NCBI GenBank assembly: GCA_026391995.1
Contig: JAPLCY010000369.1
Coordinates: forward strand, 1-7,764
DNA length: 7,764 nt
From: Candidatus Auribacterota bacterium
GTDB lineage: Bacteria; Auribacterota; Tritonobacteria; UBA1439
Direction: 5' to 3'
Shown: positions 381 through 6,746 of the stretch, piece after piece
Position numbering within the stretch: position 1 is the first letter of the stretch
How the letters are laid out: each line of letters starts with the position of its first letter
Made by a program: the position numbers and the translations under genes
The notes under the pieces: model-generated
Seen by the model: only the letters and a program-made list of their open reading frames with translations
What the model was told of the DNA's origin: nothing
The model's database searches: none

Positions 381-1487
381 TTAACGGTTGCTTTCCTTGG
401 CGAGCTCCCCAAGTTTTTGAAGCGCCCCGCCGCTTTCGAGGGCGGCGCGCGCACGATCCATGCCGTCCGGCATGGTATCCACGAGCCCCGCGGCATAGAG
501 CCCCGCGGCCGCGTTCGCGAGGCAGATGTCGCGGCGGGGGCCCCGGTCACTTCCCTTCAGGATACTGGTGAGTATGGCGGCGTTCTCCGCCGGGCTCCCA
601 CCGCGGAGCTCGTCAAGAGAAGGCTTCTTGAGGTCGAGTGCTGCGGGATCAGTCGTGAGTCGGGTTACGCAGCCATGCGTGACCCGGAGGGCATGTGTCG
701 TGCCCACCGTGGACACCTCATCCATCCACAGGTGAGGCGCGCCGGCCTCCCCGCAGACTACCAGCGCCCGTGGGAGCCCGAGGAGGGAGAGGGCGCGGGC
801 CACGGGTTCGAGCATATCGGGGTGGTAGACGCCCACGAGTTGGGCCGACACCGGAGCGGGGTTGCACAGCGGCCCGAGAAGGTTGAATACGGTGCAGAAC
901 GGGAGCGCATGCCGCACCGCCGCGACATTTCGCATGGCCGGATGATAGCGCGGGGCGAACATGAATCCGATGCCGGTCCGCCGGATGCAGCGCGCCACGG
1001 CATCGGCTGCGAGATCGATCCGCACGCCGAGGGATTCCAGGACATCTGCGCTGCCCGCGCGCGAGGTGCTCGCCCGGTTGCCGTGCTTGGCGATCGGCAT
1101 GCCGGCGGCAGCCATGATGAACATCGCACTGGTTGAGATATTGAAGAGGTGAAGCGCATCCCCGCCGGTGCCGCAGTTATCGGCGAGGATGCGAGAGTCG
1201 GGCTCGAACGTGATCCGGATGGATCGGGAGCGCATCACCCCTGCCATCGCCGCGAGCGCCTCGGGCGTGCAGGAGCCTGGTTGCGCGGCGCTGAGGAAGA
1301 GGGCGGTCTCATAGGGCCGGCTGGGCCCGCCGATCATAAGCTCCATGGCGCGCCCCGCATCGCGGGGAGTAAGTGGATCGCCGGCGAGAATTCGCCGGCC
1401 CACGGCGAGCAGTTCGGTCCATTCGCCCGCGGGGGGAGGGGGGAAGAGTTGCGGAAGATCGTTCTCCACGAATGCACGGTAGTCCAT
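381..1487 (-). CDS. trpD: anthranilate phosphoribosyltransferase
   Basis: TrpD transfers the phosphoribosyl group of PRPP to anthranilate, the second committed step of tryptophan synthesis, in the cytoplasm. Numbered from the longest frame (ATG at 1505, 374 codons), it has an N-terminal helical domain (about 30-105), the PRPP loop GTGGD (112-116), NIST (122-125), KHGNR (140-144), GSADVLESLG (151-160), the anthranilate-site stretch FAPRYHPAMRN (183-193), FNLLGPLCNP (207-216) and the metal-binding Asp-Glu pair (262-263). I prefer the ATG at codon 7 (1487): GGAGAGGG lies 8-9 nt before it, whereas the ATG at 1505 has no clear ribosome site. The product is then 368 residues, slightly longer than the usual ~340. 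Oddities: the usual Arg of the L-x-x-R-T-x-F-N segment is Cys (LPFCTVFN), and the KGET motif of the helical domain reads PGSCT. No other trp gene is in the window. A TrpD-like paralogue is possible, but the active-site motifs favour TrpD. Confidence 0.88.
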   Translation of the reverse strand: MDYRAFVENDLPQLFPPPPAGEWTELLAVGRRILAGDPLTPRDAGRAMELMIGGPSRPYETALFLSAAQPGSCTPEALAAMAGVMRSRSIRITFEPDSRILADNCGTGGDALHLFNISTSAMFIMAAAGMPIAKHGNRASTSRAGSADVLESLGVRIDLAADAVARCIRRTGIGFMFAPRYHPAMRNVAAVRHALPFCTVFNLLGPLCNPAPVSAQLVGVYHPDMLEPVARALSLLGLPRALVVCGEAGAPHLWMDEVSTVGTTHALRVTHGCVTRLTTDPAALDLKKPSLDELRGGSPAENAAILTSILKGSDRGPRRDICLANAAAGLYAAGLVDTMPDGMDRARAALESGGALQKLGELAKESNR

Positions 1488-1519
1488 CTGTTGAACCCTC
1501 TCCATGATACTTCACCACA

Positions 1520-1539: not shown

Positions 1540-1598
1540 CGTTGCCGCACCTGATTTTTCTGATCCGCCTGAACACATGGCCACGCCGGCGCAACCGT

Positions 1599-1617
1599 TT
1601 CCACCTGCGAGGTGGAA
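1599..1617 (+). promoter_or_regulatory. stem-loop that can occlude a ribosome binding site
   Basis: TTCCACCT and AGGTGGAA are perfect 8-bp arms around a 3-nt GCG loop. The 3' arm contains GAGGTGG, the best Shine-Dalgarno match for the ATG at 1619, so in RNA the 5' arm (CCACCT) pairs with it directly. A second dyad, AACATG (1616-1621) with CATGTT (1631-1636), overlaps by two bases and includes the ATG itself. As DNA, the same palindrome could be an operator in this divergent region. There is no U-run on either strand, so it is not a terminator. Confidence 0.45.
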
Positions 1618-1618
1618 C

Positions 1619-2044
1619 ATGCCAATCCCCCATGTTTGGTTGCGCGGCCGCAATGGAGCTGGTAGGGTATACGGCGTGAACACCGACACGAAAAGCACGG
1701 CTGATCGCCAGCGCGAGGATACGCTTGTTGAGGAGATCGAGCAGTTCAAGCGGGAGAAGGAGCGGGTCCGGGCGATCGTCGGGAGGATCGGAGGCGTCCC
1801 CACCTTCAGGGACAAACTCTTCAATGTTCTTTTCAGCATAGGTGTTGCCGCCTGTTTCGCGATATCAATCGCGACCCATGGGAGGCTTGTGCTGCCGATG
1901 ATCGAGATCGGCGTGGTGCTTATATCGGTAAAGATCATCTACCTGCTGCACACCTACTCGCGGCAGATGCACTTCATGTTCTGGGTGCTCTCCTCGATAG
2001 AGTGGAAGTTGAATGAAATGGCGAAGCATCCGGGGGAACGATGA
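1619..2044 (+). CDS. small two-helix membrane protein of unknown function
   Basis: I do not recognise a family. From the ATG at 1619 the product has 141 residues. A charged, probably coiled-coil stretch (about 40-75, EEIEQFKREKERVRAIV) is followed by two hydrophobic segments: KLFNVLFSIGVAACFAISIA and, after a short RL turn, VLPMIEIGVVLISVKIIYLL. The C-terminus is amphipathic (FWVLSSIEWKLNEMAKH). This predicts a small inner-membrane hairpin. The start is uncertain: ATG 1619 has GAGGTGG just upstream, while GTG 1676 (122 residues) has a weaker AGGG site but begins where G/C at third codon positions rises. A longer frame from ATG 1577 lacks a ribosome site. The TGA stop overlaps the next gene's ATG (ATGA, 2041-2044), implying translational coupling to the lipoprotein and therefore a shared transcript. 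Confidence 0.65.
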   Translation: MPIPHVWLRGRNGAGRVYGVNTDTKSTADRQREDTLVEEIEQFKREKERVRAIVGRIGGVPTFRDKLFNVLFSIGVAACFAISIATHGRLVLPMIEIGVVLISVKIIYLLHTYSRQMHFMFWVLSSIEWKLNEMAKHPGER

Positions 2045-4845
2045 GAACACGCTGCGGGATGGCGATTGCCGTGCTGCTCCTCGCCGGCTGTGTGGCCTAC
2101 ACGCCGGAAGAGATCGTGCGGCCTCCCCGGAACGCCCGCGCCGCCCGACCGGAGGCCCCTCGCGAACGGGCAGTGGCGGTTCGCCCGGCGGCGACGCCCC
2201 TCGTCATCGAGGCGGTGTTGCTCCCCGGGCCGGATGGCACGCCACCGGAGGAAACGCCGGCGCGCCGCATGGACTATATCCGGGAGCTGAAGGAGTGCCA
2301 CGAGCTCGGGGCCTCCATTGTGCGCGTGCAGCCGATCGCCGCCGACAGCGGCATGGATGCCTACCGTTTCGACCGCAGCCTGGCCAACTATCGCGCGCTG
2401 ATCGGCGAGGTGCTCCAGGCAGCGCCCGATGTCATCATCGATCTCGACCTGGAGGGCGCGCCGCCCGACGTGCAGGAGTGGGCGCAGTGCAATGAGCGGA
2501 TCGAGCTCGCGACGTCCTTCGCGTGGGACCGCTCGTTCGTCGTCGCCTCAGGCAATGTCCCGCTCACAAAGATGAAGCACGCCATCGCCCGCGGGAAAAA
2601 TCTCCGTCTCGGTCTCCATGAGAGCACCGCATGGCCGTACAAGGGGAGGGCGACGAATCTCGACTATCTCAGGCAGGCGCTGGCCCTTGCGCGTGAGGCG
2701 GGGAGGGCCGTTGCGACACCGGCGGAGGCTCGCGCGCTGCTGAACATCCCGCCGCTCCGGCAGCTCTACCTTGTCCCCTCCTCCGAAATGGTGGAGCGCG
2801 GGAAGCGGTTCTTCATGGACGCGATCATGCAGCCGATCCGGGAGCCGTTCAGGGCGTATCTGGTCGTCATTCCCCCCTCGGGGCAGCGGCGCTCGATGCT
2901 CAAGAGCGGGAAGATAGTGAGGGGGGTCCATCCGTTCGCCGGCGGGAAGGGATCGGAGTGGCTCGCGTACAAGACGCTGATCAACACGACCCTGAAGCCC
3001 GACCTGTCGAAGGGAGAGTACACCTTCTATCTCGGGTTGTTCTCGCCCCGGGCGCTGGTACGCCCCGGGCATGAGACGGCGATCACGAAATCGTCGATCA
3101 CCGTGGAGTGTGAGTTCTTGTTCTGGACGAAGGCTTTCATCCCCACGCTGAAGGAAGATCCCGCTGACGCGGAGATCGTCAGTCACATGCTCATGATACG
3201 CGCCGGGATGATGCGCAAGCTCGGCGCGGGGATCTATACGTACCTTCCCCTCGGGTGGCGCGCGATCAGGAAGGTGGAGGGGATCGTCCGCGAGGAGATG
3301 GACCGCGCGGGCGCCCAGGAGCTTCTTCTCCCCATTCTGAGTCCGGCGGAGCTCTGGCGTGAAAGCGGCCGCTGGTCCGAGTATGGCAAGGAGATGATGC
3401 GGCTGAAAGACCGGAATGAGAGGGAGTTCGCGCTCGGCCCCACGCACGAGGAGGTCATCACGGGCACGGTCCGGGGCGAGGTGCGCTCCTACCGGGAGCT
3501 CCCGGTCTGCCTCTATCAGATTCAAACAAAGTTCCGGGACGAAGTGCGGCCCCGCTTCGGCGTGATGCGCGGGCGTGAGTTTACGATGAAGGACGCCTAC
3601 TCGTTCCACCGCGATCCCGCCTCGCTCGACGACTACTATAAGATAATGCACGAGGCATACACGCGCATCTTCCGGCGCTGCGGCCTTGACTTCAGGGCGG
3701 TGCTGGCCGATGCCGGGATCATGGGGGGCAAAGTCACGCACGAATTCATGGTGCTGGCGGCGTCGGGGGAGTCGGTCGTGCTCTCCTGTCCCGCACAGGG
3801 CTGCGGCTACGCCGCCACCACGGACACGGCGTCGGGTGCCATACCCGCGTGCGCGGTGGCGGGGGATGAGCCTCTGCGGGAGGTCCACACGCCGGGGCGG
3901 AAGACGGTCGAGGAGGTCACGGCGTTTCTCAAGGTGGGGCCCGAGTGTGTGATCAAGACGCTTATCTACGAAGCGGCGGGCGCGCCGGTCGCAGTGCTCA
4001 TCCGTGGCGACAGGGATGTGAACGAGGCTAAACTCCAGAACGCGCTCGCGTGCATCAACATCGCCCTCGCCGACGAGGCGGTCATACGCCGCACAACCGG
4101 CGCCGGGCTCGGTTTCGCCGGGCCGGTGGGCCTCAGGGGGATACGCGTGATCGCCGATCACACGGTGAAAGGGATCACGGGGGGCGTCACCGGGGCCAAC
4201 AAGACCGACTATCACCTGACCGGTGTGCGCGAGGGGCGCGATTTTACTGTCTCCGGGTATCACGACCTGGCGCTCAATCGCGAGGGGGACGGCTGCCCCC
4301 GCTGCGGCGCGGCGCTCACGGCCTACCGGGGGATTGAGGTGGGGCAGATCTTCAAGCTCGGCACTAAATACAGCGAATCGATGCAGGCGGTTTTCACTGA
4401 TGAGGATGGTGCCGCGAAGCCGTTTGTCATGGGGTGCTACGGTATCGGGATTACCAGGACGGTTGCCGCGGCGATCGAGCAGCATCACGACAGGGATGGA
4501 ATCATCTGGCCCCTCTCGATCGCCCCGTACCATGTGGAGATCATCCCGATGAACGTCGGCGACGAGGCGACGATGAAGGTCGCGACGGATCTCTACGCGG
4601 CCCTCGGGCAGCGCGGGGTCGAGACGCTGCTTGACGACAGGGACGAGCGCCCGGGGGTCAAGTTCAAGGACGCCGACCTGGTTGGCATACCGTACAGGGT
4701 CGTTATCGGACCGAAGGGGCTCGCACAGGGGAAGGTCGAGCTCAAGTCGCGCGGCTCAAAAGAGACGCAACTCCTGGCGCTGGAGGGGGCTGCTGAAGAG
4801 ATTGCACTGATGGTGAGAACGGCCCTGGATAAACTGGCCGGGTAG
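2041..4845 (+). CDS. continuous ORF: BKACE-like lipoprotein joined in frame to prolyl-tRNA synthetase
   Basis: Residues 1-17 are a lipoprotein signal ending in the lipobox LLAGC, so Cys17 would be lipidated. A Pro/Arg-rich linker (about 24-50) follows. Residues 52-236 resemble BKACE (DUF849, beta-keto acid cleavage enzyme): an opening TPLVIEAV, GASIV (90-94), and at the end NLRLGL...GRATNLDYLRQA...GRAVATPAEARALLNI (187-236). The family's His-x-His metal pair is Arg95/Gln97, and the Glu of its GLED motif is His193. The middle of the TIM barrel, roughly 100 residues, appears missing. It is therefore probably a non-catalytic relic or binding domain. Residues 240-358 look like a beta-sandwich (PFRAYLVVIPPSG, EYTFYLGLF, SSITVECE), family unknown. 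From Leu360 the frame continues straight into a full ProRS. A lipid-anchored synthetase would be very unusual, so a lost stop (for example TGT at 3109 from TGA), a sequence error, or separate internal initiation are all possible. The start ATG 2041 is preceded by GGGGGA and overlaps the upstream stop. Confidence 0.6.
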   Translation: MRTRCGMAIAVLLLAGCVAYTPEEIVRPPRNARAARPEAPRERAVAVRPAATPLVIEAVLLPGPDGTPPEETPARRMDYIRELKECHELGASIVRVQPIAADSGMDAYRFDRSLANYRALIGEVLQAAPDVIIDLDLEGAPPDVQEWAQCNERIELATSFAWDRSFVVASGNVPLTKMKHAIARGKNLRLGLHESTAWPYKGRATNLDYLRQALALAREAGRAVATPAEARALLNIPPLRQLYLVPSSEMVERGKRFFMDAIMQPIREPFRAYLVVIPPSGQRRSMLKSGKIVRGVHPFAGGKGSEWLAYKTLINTTLKPDLSKGEYTFYLGLFSPRALVRPGHETAITKSSITVECEFLFWTKAFIPTLKEDPADAEIVSHMLMIRAGMMRKLGAGIYTYLPLGWRAIRKVEGIVREEMDRAGAQELLLPILSPAELWRESGRWSEYGKEMMRLKDRNEREFALGPTHEEVITGTVRGEVRSYRELPVCLYQIQTKFRDEVRPRFGVMRGREFTMKDAYSFHRDPASLDDYYKIMHEAYTRIFRRCGLDFRAVLADAGIMGGKVTHEFMVLAASGESVVLSCPAQGCGYAATTDTASGAIPACAVAGDEPLREVHTPGRKTVEEVTAFLKVGPECVIKTLIYEAAGAPVAVLIRGDRDVNEAKLQNALACINIALADEAVIRRTTGAGLGFAGPVGLRGIRVIADHTVKGITGGVTGANKTDYHLTGVREGRDFTVSGYHDLALNREGDGCPRCGAALTAYRGIEVGQIFKLGTKYSESMQAVFTDEDGAAKPFVMGCYGIGITRTVAAAIEQHHDRDGIIWPLSIAPYHVEIIPMNVGDEATMKVATDLYAALGQRGVETLLDDRDERPGVKFKDADLVGIPYRVVIGPKGLAQGKVELKSRGSKETQLLALEGAAEEIALMVRTALDKLAG
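3044..3070 (+). repeat. 10-bp direct repeat able to form a GC hairpin
   Basis: CGCCCCGGGC occurs at 3044-3053 and 3061-3070, 7 nt apart, inside the lipoprotein coding part (SPRALVRPG). The copies can also pair with each other through GCCC/GGGC, GGG/CCC and CG/CG with single-base bulges. It lies about 50 nt before the proS TTG. There is no U-run after it, so it is not an intrinsic terminator; it may be only a product of local GC-rich codon use. Confidence 0.5.
3118..4845 (+). CDS. proS: proline--tRNA ligase, bacterial type, from internal TTG
   Basis: ProRS activates proline with ATP and charges tRNA-Pro in the cytoplasm. Starting at TTG 3118, with GGAG (3105-3108) 9 nt upstream, the protein opens MFWTKAFIPTLKEDPADAE, where bacterial ProRS proteins normally start, and has 575 residues, the usual length. 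Seen in order: the TxE loop THE (109-111); class II motif 2, from FRDE through RGREFTMKDAYSF (139-163); the INS editing domain (about 224-405) with the IKTL lysine (280) that guards against mischarged Ala; a Cys-rich CPRCG element; motif 3, GCYGIGITR with Arg447 (439-447); and a C-terminal anticodon-binding domain (HVEIIPMNV onward). All catalytic landmarks are intact, so this is almost certainly the working enzyme. The same frame is open upstream into the lipoprotein domain, so it may also be made as a fusion. It converges on the BMC-P genes with 10 nt between stops. Confidence 0.93.
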   Translation: MFWTKAFIPTLKEDPADAEIVSHMLMIRAGMMRKLGAGIYTYLPLGWRAIRKVEGIVREEMDRAGAQELLLPILSPAELWRESGRWSEYGKEMMRLKDRNEREFALGPTHEEVITGTVRGEVRSYRELPVCLYQIQTKFRDEVRPRFGVMRGREFTMKDAYSFHRDPASLDDYYKIMHEAYTRIFRRCGLDFRAVLADAGIMGGKVTHEFMVLAASGESVVLSCPAQGCGYAATTDTASGAIPACAVAGDEPLREVHTPGRKTVEEVTAFLKVGPECVIKTLIYEAAGAPVAVLIRGDRDVNEAKLQNALACINIALADEAVIRRTTGAGLGFAGPVGLRGIRVIADHTVKGITGGVTGANKTDYHLTGVREGRDFTVSGYHDLALNREGDGCPRCGAALTAYRGIEVGQIFKLGTKYSESMQAVFTDEDGAAKPFVMGCYGIGITRTVAAAIEQHHDRDGIIWPLSIAPYHVEIIPMNVGDEATMKVATDLYAALGQRGVETLLDDRDERPGVKFKDADLVGIPYRVVIGPKGLAQGKVELKSRGSKETQLLALEGAAEEIALMVRTALDKLAG

Positions 4846-4855
4846 CGTCGTTAAA

Positions 4856-5140
4856 TTACTTTTTGGGATTTGATTCGATGTCAATCGAATCAATAAAGCC
4901 CACGATGACGGCGCGGACGCAGCCGTCGGCCCAGTCCAGCACCAGCCGGGCGGAGTTTCCCTCATCCACGAATAGCACCCTGTCTCCGGGGCCCGCGCAG
5001 ACGGTATCCACGGCGACGACCGGCGCCTCGGCCTTTTTCCCGTAGGGGTCTTCGGGGCGGACAAGGAGAAGTTTCCGGCCGTTATATCCCTCGTTTTTCA
5101 ATGTCGCCACCACCGTGCCTATCACCGTGCCGATCTTCAT
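4856..5140 (-). CDS. BMC-P vertex protein, EutN/CcmL family (third of trio)
   Basis: BMC-P proteins form pentamers that cap the vertices of bacterial microcompartments. The 94 residues match the whole single-domain fold: the opening MKIGTVIGTVVATLKNEGY, the strand KLLLVRP (23-29), VVAVDTVCAGPGDRVLF (41-57), the family signature GNSAR (61-65, usually GSSAR) and the closing AVIVGFIDSIDI (77-88). Length is normal (about 85-100). Its ATG overlaps the TGA of the preceding BMC-P gene (ATGA on the minus strand, 5137-5140), so the two are translationally coupled. It is the most canonical of the three and probably the main vertex protein. Its last codons carry a perfect 10-bp inverted repeat. The specific type of compartment cannot be told from vertex proteins alone. 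Confidence 0.92.
   Translation of the reverse strand: MKIGTVIGTVVATLKNEGYNGRKLLLVRPEDPYGKKAEAPVVAVDTVCAGPGDRVLFVDEGNSARLVLDWADGCVRAVIVGFIDSIDIESNPKK
4870..4893. repeat. perfect 10-bp inverted repeat in BMC-P 3' end
   Basis: TTGATTCGAT (4870-4879) and ATCGAATCAA (4884-4893) are perfect complements around a 4-nt loop. The repeat lies within the last codons of the third BMC-P gene (residues IDSIDIES) and 24 nt past the proS stop on the opposite strand, so it would fold in transcripts from both sides. Neither strand shows a U-run after it, so it is not a classical intrinsic terminator; it might stabilise or mark the 3' end of one or both converging messages. Confidence 0.6.
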
Positions 5141-5409
5141 CTCGTATTCCTGCTTACCATATCGATGATGCCGATAATCGCGGCGTCCGAGGGGTTGAAT
5201 GGTTCGGGCAGCGGCAGCGAGGCCTCCCGTCCCCCGATGAAGAAGACGGTTTCGCCGGGGCCCGACTGTTGCGTGTCACACGCGACAACGGGCTCACCGG
5301 ACGGTTTCCCGTCCTCGTCGAGCGGCTGGACGAGGAGCAGTTTCACTCCGGTGAGTGACTCAACCTTGCGCGTGGCGACCACGGTTCCTATTACTTTACC
5401 AATTTTCAT
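5137..5409 (-). CDS. BMC-P vertex protein, EutN/CcmL family (second of trio)
   Basis: The 90-residue single-domain BMC-P protein shows MKIGKVIGTVVATRKVESLTG, KLLLVQPLD (23-31), EPVVACDTQQSGPGETVFF (39-57) and AAIIGIIDMV (76-85). The GSSAR signature is altered to GGREASLPLPEP (59-70), so it is a diverged paralogue, perhaps occupying a subset of vertices. The ATG at 5409 is chosen because it aligns with the conserved MKIG start; the frame is open upstream, but those residues are a shadow of the first BMC-P gene. No Shine-Dalgarno is visible in the 17-nt gap after the first gene's stop, which holds a tandem 7-mer (AACTTAG twice on the plus strand, 5417-5430). Translation may depend on coupling to the upstream gene. 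Its own stop overlaps the next ATG. Confidence 0.9.
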   Translation of the reverse strand: MKIGKVIGTVVATRKVESLTGVKLLLVQPLDEDGKPSGEPVVACDTQQSGPGETVFFIGGREASLPLPEPFNPSDAAIIGIIDMVSRNTR

Positions 5410-5426: not shown

Positions 5427-5717
5427 TTAGTGTTTGACCCTGAACTCTTTGCCCCCGACTTCCCATGTGTCCACGATCGCCATCACGATGCCGTCGACCG
5501 GCTTCTTGTCGGTGGGGGCGGTCTGGCGGCAGGAGCTCCCCTCGGCGTAGAGGACGACATCGCCCGTGCCCGCCTGGACCACGTCGACGGCGACGACGTA
5601 GTTGTTGAGCGGCTTGTCGGTATGCGAGAGCTGCTGCACGAGGAGCAGCTTCAGCCCCTTGATGCTCTCGCTTTTCTGCGTGGAGACGACCGTCCCCACG
5701 ACCTTGCCGAGTTGCAT
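5427..5717 (-). CDS. BMC-P vertex protein, EutN/CcmL family (first of trio)
   Basis: The 96-residue BMC-P protein has MQLGKVVGTVVSTQKSESIKG, KLLLVQQL (23-30), NYVVAVDVVQAGTGDVVLYAEGSSCRQ (39-65; the signature is GSSCR instead of GSSAR) and DGIVMAIVDTW (75-85). The C-terminal tail (EVGGKEFRVKH) is longer than in its neighbours. The ATG at 5717 matches the conserved family start and has purine-rich GGGCGGAAG just upstream; the in-frame extension to 5873 runs through promoter-like DNA and shows no homology. This is the first gene of a three-gene minus-strand operon. Three different BMC-P paralogues in one operon are typical of some complex compartments, including planctomycete/verrucomicrobial ones, where they sit with hexamer (BMC-H) genes and enzymes. 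None of those is present here. Confidence 0.9.
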   Translation of the reverse strand: MQLGKVVGTVVSTQKSESIKGLKLLLVQQLSHTDKPLNNYVVAVDVVQAGTGDVVLYAEGSSCRQTAPTDKKPVDGIVMAIVDTWEVGGKEFRVKH

Positions 5718-5878: not shown

Positions 5879-6451
5879 CTATCTATGTTTTTTTAACTTT
5901 ATCCCCAGACTCTTTATTTCATCATTAAGGAATGCCTTTACGCCCAACCAATTGGCCCATTTCCCGAGATACGCGAAATCTAGCTTGGCGGAATTTTCCG
6001 CAATTATATTCCGTGCATCTTCTGTATCTTTTTCTCTGCCCGTCTGTAATTTTAAAAGGATCAGATCTTCGCGGGAAATGATATCCACGGGCATTTTTCC
6101 GAACTTTATCCTTCTCGCCCTTTTTACTATACCCTTCTGGAAAACGGTTTCGGCGATAAATAAATCAACGTATAATTTGTGTTTCTTATGGAACAAGGTT
6201 ATAAATGGCAAACCATGAATGAATTTCACGGGTTTTTTTTCGTCATACCCGAAACCCAATTTAGTGACAGCAGGTAAAAACTTATCCAAATCGTGTTTTT
6301 CGGAATCGATGATACCGTCTATATCGTAGGTGGCCCTCGGCCTGGCATAGAAGCTCGTCGCTATGCCCCCCATCAATACGACGCGGATCTCCTTCTTCCG
6401 GCAAAGTGTTACAAGTGTTTTAAGCGACCGTGTTAAAATATCACTTAGCAT
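5879..6451 (-). CDS. nucleotidyltransferase-fold protein, AbiEii/MNT-like putative toxin
   Basis: The 190 residues carry the DNA polymerase beta-like nucleotidyltransferase signature: Gly28-Gly29 (LMGGIATSFYA), then Arg39-x-Thr41-x-Asp43-Ile-Asp45, and a likely third acidic ligand, Asp96, in YVDLF. The segment IISREDLILLKLQTGREKDTEDARNII (124-150) is the conserved helix seen in AbiEii-type and related proteins. Family members transfer nucleotides to tRNA or protein targets and often act as toxins or abortive-infection effectors; the target here is unknown. The active-site residues look intact. The start ATG 6451 has AGGA 6 nt upstream and overlaps the preceding small gene by 11 nt. The gene is clearly more AT-rich than its neighbours (Lys, Ile and Phe through A/T-ending codons), suggesting recent transfer. 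A housekeeping nucleotidyltransferase is less likely in this context. Confidence 0.75.
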   Translation of the reverse strand: MLSDILTRSLKTLVTLCRKKEIRVVLMGGIATSFYARPRATYDIDGIIDSEKHDLDKFLPAVTKLGFGYDEKKPVKFIHGLPFITLFHKKHKLYVDLFIAETVFQKGIVKRARRIKFGKMPVDIISREDLILLKLQTGREKDTEDARNIIAENSAKLDFAYLGKWANWLGVKAFLNDEIKSLGIKLKKHR

Positions 6452-6638
6452 AAGCCGTCCTGCTGATGCCTTTCAATATGGAATGAGTTGCCTTTACCTT
6501 CTCCTCCCGCATGCGTTCCAGCTTGTGCAGAAATTCGGTTTTACTCAGATTATCTTTCATTAAATTAAATGTGATATCGCAGAGGGAAAGCCACGCCTCT
6601 ATTTTTTCCTGCGTATTGAGTCTCGTTGTATGATGCAT
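6441..6638 (-). CDS. small helical protein paired with the nucleotidyltransferase, possible antitoxin
   Basis: The 65-residue product is predicted to be almost all helix and highly charged (EKIEAWLSLCDITFNLMKDN, then KTEFLHKLERMREEKVKA). It has no signal peptide or membrane segment and no recognisable DNA-binding motif. It ends 11 nt inside the nucleotidyltransferase gene in another frame, so the pair is almost surely co-translated. A small first gene overlapping a toxin-like second gene is the usual layout of toxin-antitoxin modules, but known AbiE antitoxins are much larger winged-helix proteins, so this would be a different partner type. The start ATG 6638 has only a GGGG-rich stretch as a possible ribosome site. 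It shares the AT-rich composition of its partner. Function is inferred from position only. Confidence 0.6.
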   Translation of the reverse strand: MHHTTRLNTQEKIEAWLSLCDITFNLMKDNLSKTEFLHKLERMREEKVKATHSILKGISRTAYAK

Positions 6639-6746
6639 AGAGCCGACCCCGATCCTATTACAGGTACAGGAACATGCGTAATTTTATCAATTTCTATGCC
6701 ATTTTGATATGAAAAGTACCACTACCGCAGAAAACGCACGGGTGCA
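6639..6746. other. AT-rich intergenic gap, right border of the acquired block
   Basis: About 108 nt between the symporter stop and the small helical gene. It is AT-rich in the middle, and base composition returns to GC-rich just beyond 6720. It must hold the promoter of the small gene/nucleotidyltransferase pair, but I find only weak -10-like and -35-like pieces with poor spacing. No tRNA or attachment-site repeat is seen. Confidence 0.4.

Follow-up and report, generated by a model that had tools for sequence, protein, structure and literature searches.

A predicted lipoprotein gene and a prolyl-tRNA synthetase gene share one reading frame in a single Auribacterota assembly

Organization of the locus

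We analysed a stretch of 7,764 nucleotides (the window) from a Candidatus Auribacterota genome assembly (GCA_026391995.1), which holds an open frame of 934 codons without a stop, running from an ATG at 2041 to a TAG that ends at 4845 (Table 1). As the original prediction had it, this single uninterrupted frame contains a complete predicted lipoprotein (residues 1-356) followed by a complete prolyl-tRNA synthetase of the bacterial type (ProRS). Codon TTG 3118 indeed lies in the same frame as ATG 2041, nine bases behind a GGAG, and is separated by a spacer of 6 nt from the TGT at 3109-3111. The sizes of the two possible products, predicted at about 64 and 103 kDa, were computed as 62.8 kDa for the 575 residues counted from TTG 3118 and 102.4 kDa for the full frame.

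Table 1. Features of the window, in order of position.
Feature	Position	Strand	Remarks
TrpD-like transferase (PF00591)	381..1505	-	neighbour on the other side of the pair
Upstream gene, 155 codons or fewer	1577..2044	+	start uncertain; TGA stop at 2042-2044
Predicted lipoprotein gene proper, 356 codons	2041..3108	+	signal peptide, shortened BKACE/DUF849-like part, C-terminal sandwich ending at E356
GGAG, Shine-Dalgarno-like site	3105..3108	+	9 nt before TTG 3118, within the last lipoprotein codons
TGT (Cys357)	3109..3111	+	aligned codon is the lipoprotein stop in 4/5 relatives (TGA in G001, G003, G004; TAA in G002)
Proline--tRNA ligase (ProRS, bacterial type, editing domain), 575 aa	3118..4845	+	profile matches, homologue alignment
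EutN/CcmL-type shell protein 1	4856..5140	-	convergent with ProRS
EutN/CcmL-type shell protein 2	5137..5409	-	neighbour
EutN/CcmL-type shell protein 3	5427..5717	-	neighbour

In DNA as GC-rich as this, the length of an open frame says little by itself. A spurious chance frame was considered and rejected, because both the lipoprotein and the ProRS are genuine genes, with homologues that match them in extent. The unusual feature is that two real genes share one frame without a stop, which is seen in none of the five relatives available in the order (the order counts six genomes including that of the window, G000, and all comparisons at this level are with the other five, G001 to G005). We also rejected a reading of UGA as a sense codon, which is unneeded because TGT is the codon in question and TGA acts as a stop elsewhere, ending the upstream gene as well as the lipoprotein of four of the five relatives.

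The TGA of the upstream gene overlaps the ATG of the lipoprotein gene (ATGA), so that these two genes are likely translationally coupled. A homologue of the upstream gene (69% identity) is found directly upstream of the lipoprotein gene in G002, and none was found in the other four fetched relative stretches. Three EutN/CcmL genes in a row adjoin the ProRS gene in four of the five fetched stretches (the contig of G005 ends near ProRS) and a TrpD-like gene lies near the lipoprotein-ProRS pair in three of the five. Positions 5879-6700 of the window are AT-rich (about 42-44% GC versus 55-69% elsewhere in the window) and encode a nucleotidyltransferase (DUF2204/DUF6036) and a frame of 65 codons, neither of them found in the fetched stretches of the five relatives and both without a PADLOC match; this AT-rich stretch is possibly an insertion. 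A search with Rfam found no RNA in the window or in stretch L053.

The lipoprotein part

Residues 1-17, read by eye from the sequence, form a signal peptide that ends in an LLAGC lipobox with Cys17. This cysteine is conserved in four of the five relatives (the alignment has a gap in G005) and a loose lipobox pattern fits nine of the 12 database homologues, one of the three misses (P0004) being a protein without an N-terminus. Judged by its lipobox and cysteine, the N-terminal part is of the bacterial lipoprotein type, with a predicted location in the cell envelope; a lipoprotein signal peptide exports the protein that carries it.

The first part of the lipoprotein matches the BKACE enzymes (DUF849, PF05853; Kce, PDB 2y7d) both by profile and by fold. 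Profile PF05853 scored 56 bits (cut-off 24.8) over residues 169-235 only, the NCBI Kce model reached 31.6 bits, far below its cut-off of 382, and in a profile search Kce was aligned significantly over the first and last parts only, the middle of the barrel being without a profile match. The structure model (mean pLDDT 83.3, mostly confident from about residue 50 onward) consists of an alpha/beta part and then a beta sandwich, of which the last strand ends at residue 356. The top solved structures found with Foldseek were the DUF849/Kce enzymes 3chv and 2y7d, at TM-scores of 0.37-0.43 by query length, and the weaker matches include a CARDB domain.

The protein departs from the BKACE enzymes in its lipoprotein signal peptide, in the sandwich added at its C-terminus and in the residues that occupy the three metal-ligand positions. 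R95, Q97 and H193 are found at the positions aligned to the metal ligands of Kce, which we take to be H46, H48 and E230. R95 and Q97 are invariant in all six genomes of the family and position 193 is H in three of these and R in the other three. A literature search that combined Kce, zinc and DUF849 gave no hit. The modelled fold and these substitutions suggest that the lipoprotein is likely an exported offshoot of the BKACE enzyme fold without its metal chemistry.

With the lipoprotein part as query, a protein search gave 14 proteins, of which 12 are relatives over most of the length (42-54% identity) and two are weak matches that carry a DUF849 domain. In eleven of the 12 the last residue is the one aligned to E356; P0011 is five residues longer. 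As a single-protein query in genome_contigs the lipoprotein found no relative, nor did it in viral_contigs; an alignment-based search found one, L005. In a seventh genome, of the same class, ProRS is present and the lipoprotein part is unmatched at E <= 0.001. The conserved gene pair reveals an exported protein, as predicted from its signal peptide, that is built on the fold of a metabolic enzyme and is present in all six genomes of the order.

The ProRS part and its start

Residues 363-921 match PRK09194 at 783 bits, above the equivalog cut-off of 558, and TIGR00409 at 690 bits (cut-off 306.7). The class II core (PF00587), the editing domain (PF04073) and the anticodon-binding domain (PF03129) all score above gathering in this part, and the best solved relatives are proline--tRNA ligases that are aligned from residues 362-365 on. 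The ProRS therefore resembles the PRK09194/TIGR00409 enzymes over its full length, with catalytic core, editing insert and anticodon-binding domain; it differs in that it begins with a TTG without an upstream stop, whereas the genes of the five relatives begin with an ATG that follows a stop and a further 26-175 nt.

The junction was originally placed at the natural N-terminus of ProRS, and homologues bear this out. Twenty ProRS homologues were picked for alignment from the 119 others among the best 120 matches to the frame; in 19 the first residue is the one that TTG 3118 encodes, and the twentieth, P0020, has a Met at that position with five residues ahead of it. A database entry, P0015, equals the ProRS of the window at 575 aa, the length expected for a start at TTG 3118; this entry has one member, from one contig. 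In a search with the whole frame of 934 aa the 8000 candidates sharing most words were scored, with lengths up to 1.75 times that of the query permitted, and 7995 matched; among the best 120 of these no fused protein was found, all being 608 aa or shorter.

For the ribosome-binding site we computed pairing energies with anti-Shine-Dalgarno letters that we assumed. The duplex before TTG 3118 (-9.8 kcal/mol) is tied for the best among the 60 in-frame ATG, GTG and TTG codons, and the ProRS starts of the five relatives range from -4.5 to -12.0 kcal/mol. The tie is with GTG 2470, which lies inside the lipoprotein, and therefore the match alone does not prove a start; ATG 2041 itself is tied fourth at -8.6 kcal/mol. 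The strong pairing indicates nonetheless that a signal for separate initiation is still present, so that a start codon and a Shine-Dalgarno match coincide at the homologous N-terminus of ProRS. A second ProRS was not found in the genome, other matches being weaker and partial; since the genome is 84% complete, a second gene could be absent from the assembly. Initiation at TTG 3118 is the best reading because the initiation signal is kept and no second ProRS was found, and from homology and the ribosome-binding match ProRS is likely made separately from this codon.

The gene pair in related genomes

Each of the five order-level relatives has the ProRS gene next to and after the lipoprotein gene, with a stop between the two (TGA in G001, G003, G004 and G005, TAA in G002). 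The suspicion that TGT 3109-3111 is a lost stop gained by this comparison: the lipoprotein stops exactly at the aligned codon 357 in G001 to G004 (three times TGA, once TAA), and five codons later in G005. The distance from the stop to the ATG of ProRS is 26 nt in G001, 175 in G002, 50 in G003, 116 in G004 and 27 in G005. In G001 to G004 the two genes are in different frames; in G005 they are in one frame, parted only by the TGA and nine further codons. ProRS starts with ATG in all five relatives versus TTG in the window, and has about 73-80% identity with that of the window. The nearest relative, G001, belongs to the same genus and has 77% identity in ProRS and 48% in the lipoprotein.

A comparison of the junction in related genomes had been proposed with the original prediction, and a stop between the two domains in close relatives had been named there as the refuting outcome; such a stop was found in five of five, and the genes form an ordinary pair in every relative. 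A lipid-anchored synthetase as a conserved feature fails for this reason. The same holds on a wider scale: the frame as query was matched in all 44 genomes of the phylum, that of the window included (a few matches were merely partial or weak), and an unbroken match over both parts was seen in the genome of the window only. Hence the fusion occurs in one genome, with no second case among the five order-level relatives or elsewhere among the 44. Lipoprotein and ProRS matches P0001 and P0022 lie on contigs of equal extent (26829), as do P0007 and P0021 (29606), which suggests that they are separate neighbours in these two cases.

Some other frames around ProRS genes were also unusual. In G003 (L036) 375 stop-free codons precede the ATG of ProRS in its frame, which is not that of the lipoprotein; this long frame is accidental, the DNA being GC-rich. 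Contig C72 of G018 has a ProRS match at 49835-51568 with an internal TAG and an open frame of 1087 codons, which could be another accidental or fused frame. In G005 (L005, about 6360-6390) the ProRS frame stops early near the contig end, and a protein with the same N-terminal part as this ProRS (P0032) has full length, so that the early end looks like a chimeric contig end.

Frame integrity of the assembly

The assembly that contains the window consists of 395 contigs and is 84% complete. As a control of frame integrity, 57 of its contigs including the window (259 kb of 1814 kb) were compared with G001, of which 899 kb out of about 3800 kb was covered in 81 stretches. Before overlaps were removed, seven G000 frames (two of them in the window) had two partners in G001, and two G001 frames had two in G000; apart from the frame of the window itself, we take these to be accidental frames over real genes. 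When only the best-scoring non-overlapping matches were accepted (n=53), one G000 frame held two G001 genes and this was the frame of the window. Neither another fusion nor a G001 gene split over two G000 frames was found among the 53. Correspondingly, 24 of the 25 same-strand neighbour pairs in the sample are in separate frames. Ends agree within 20 codons in 42 of the 48 matches with both stops present; the six pairs that end more than 20 codons apart are that of the window and five at 27-47% identity.

In the sample, then, the reading frames of the assembly are generally intact and frame errors look rare, which speaks somewhat against an error at the junction and cannot prove a single base. 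The TGT differs by one base from TGA, the aligned stop of three relatives, yet more than one base sets the junction as a whole apart from that of the nearest relative (a spacer of 6 versus 26 nt and a TTG versus an ATG start), so that a longer-standing rearrangement on the lineage is possible instead of one recent base change. Nothing shows that the change of the stop is recent, because even the nearest relative is distant. We consider a real mutation and a consensus error at TGT 3109-3111 about equally likely.

Origin and meaning of the shared frame

With high probability we are dealing with an adjacent gene pair of which the stop has been lost in one assembly, while ProRS is likely still a separate cytosolic enzyme that starts at TTG 3118. 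The lipoprotein and ProRS genes would be neighbours in one operon, which they likely form, and with the lipoprotein stop of the five relatives missing here the two frames would read as one, ProRS still being translated on its own. Should the TGT be real, each ribosome initiating at ATG 2041 would additionally produce the 102 kDa lipoprotein-ProRS chain, and the signal peptide would send this chain to the cell envelope; there its ProRS part is predicted to be idle, because no tRNA and ATP are present. On present evidence, then, the locus represents a stop loss in a single assembly and not a lipid-anchored synthetase.

Of the options offered originally (a fusion, dual products, or a lost stop or sequencing error), the suspect stop codon was borne out, a conserved fusion was not, and a private fusion retains some probability. 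Two sub-cases fall within our explanation. The first sub-case is a real, species-specific fusion with two products, an envelope-bound one of 102 kDa from ATG 2041 and a soluble one of 63 kDa from TTG 3118. We give this somewhat less than an even chance. The frame itself is open, the spacer is shortened to 6 nt from the 26-175 nt of the five relatives, the sampled assembly is sound elsewhere (no other fusion and no split in 53 accepted matches), the initiation signal at 3118 is strong and, if the DNA is correct, the long product is unavoidable whenever the lipoprotein is translated. Against this, none of the five order-level relatives and no other of the 44 phylum genomes has the fusion, a single sequence supports it (entry P0015, with its one member on one contig), only three residues join the last predicted lipoprotein strand to ProRS in the predicted structure, and an exported ProRS would be without its substrates, which are absent outside the cytoplasm.

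The second sub-case, which we hold to be just as plausible, is that the sequence at 3109-3111 reflects a minority variant or an error of consensus or assembly, the organism having an ordinary stop there. The single base that separates TGT from the TGA of three relatives and the fragmented state of the draft assembly that supplied the contig (395 contigs, 84% complete) agree with this, but the 57 contigs gave no other fused or split frame among the 53 accepted matches and the spacer differs from that of the relatives by more than one base. Taken as one claim, that the stop is truly gone and that the frame yields both a soluble ProRS of 63 kDa from TTG 3118 and an exported, lipid-anchored lipoprotein-ProRS of 102 kDa, the reading with two products appears rather unlikely.

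We know of no aminoacyl-tRNA synthetase that is carried on a lipoprotein. Synthetase-type domains joined to membrane proteins do exist: LysX of Mycobacterium tuberculosis is made up of MprF and LysRS, and its synthetase part faces the cytoplasm, different from the exported part considered here. LysX, a two-domain protein, is reportedly required for lysinylated phosphatidylglycerol (PMC2713425). It resembles the frame of the window in combining a synthetase-type domain and a membrane-protein part in one chain and differs in this function. In cyanobacteria, CAAD is described as a domain that anchors ValRS to thylakoid membranes, the membrane location being reported, and as a recurrent acquisition; here too a synthetase and an added membrane-targeting part share one chain, but the anchor is another one and recurs, whereas the frame of the window is known from one assembly and begins with an exporting signal peptide (PMC4893482). 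In the parts of the literature available to the search, none of the matches listed described a lipoprotein aminoacyl-tRNA synthetase. A conserved, functional membrane-tethered ProRS comparable to the CAAD-anchored synthetases is very improbable: a complete lipobox and a complete ProRS do stand in one frame, but there are stops in all five order-level relatives, the 20 aligned homologues keep the ProRS start without a lipoprotein part, and CAAD is reported to anchor ValRS to thylakoid membranes whereas a lipoprotein signal peptide would export (PMC4893482).

If the 102 kDa form is real, it would be, as far as known, the first case of a lipoprotein that carries an aminoacyl-tRNA synthetase, and a truly lost stop would turn the locus into a natural experiment on whether a cytosolic, essential enzyme tolerates fusion to a secretion signal, the internal start coming to its rescue. 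If it is an error, the lesson is a cautionary one: a single base of a draft genome is enough to produce what looks like a lipid-anchored synthetase.

At the other end of the enzyme, an NPK-type tail (e.g. NPKSQIPNPK) ends nine of the 18 close ProRS homologues (P0016-P0033). TTTGGGA/TCCCAAA repeats are found near the ProRS gene in G001 (L034, about 7031) and G002 (L035, about 2025 and 5821), and these repeats could encode ProRS tails of the NPK type.
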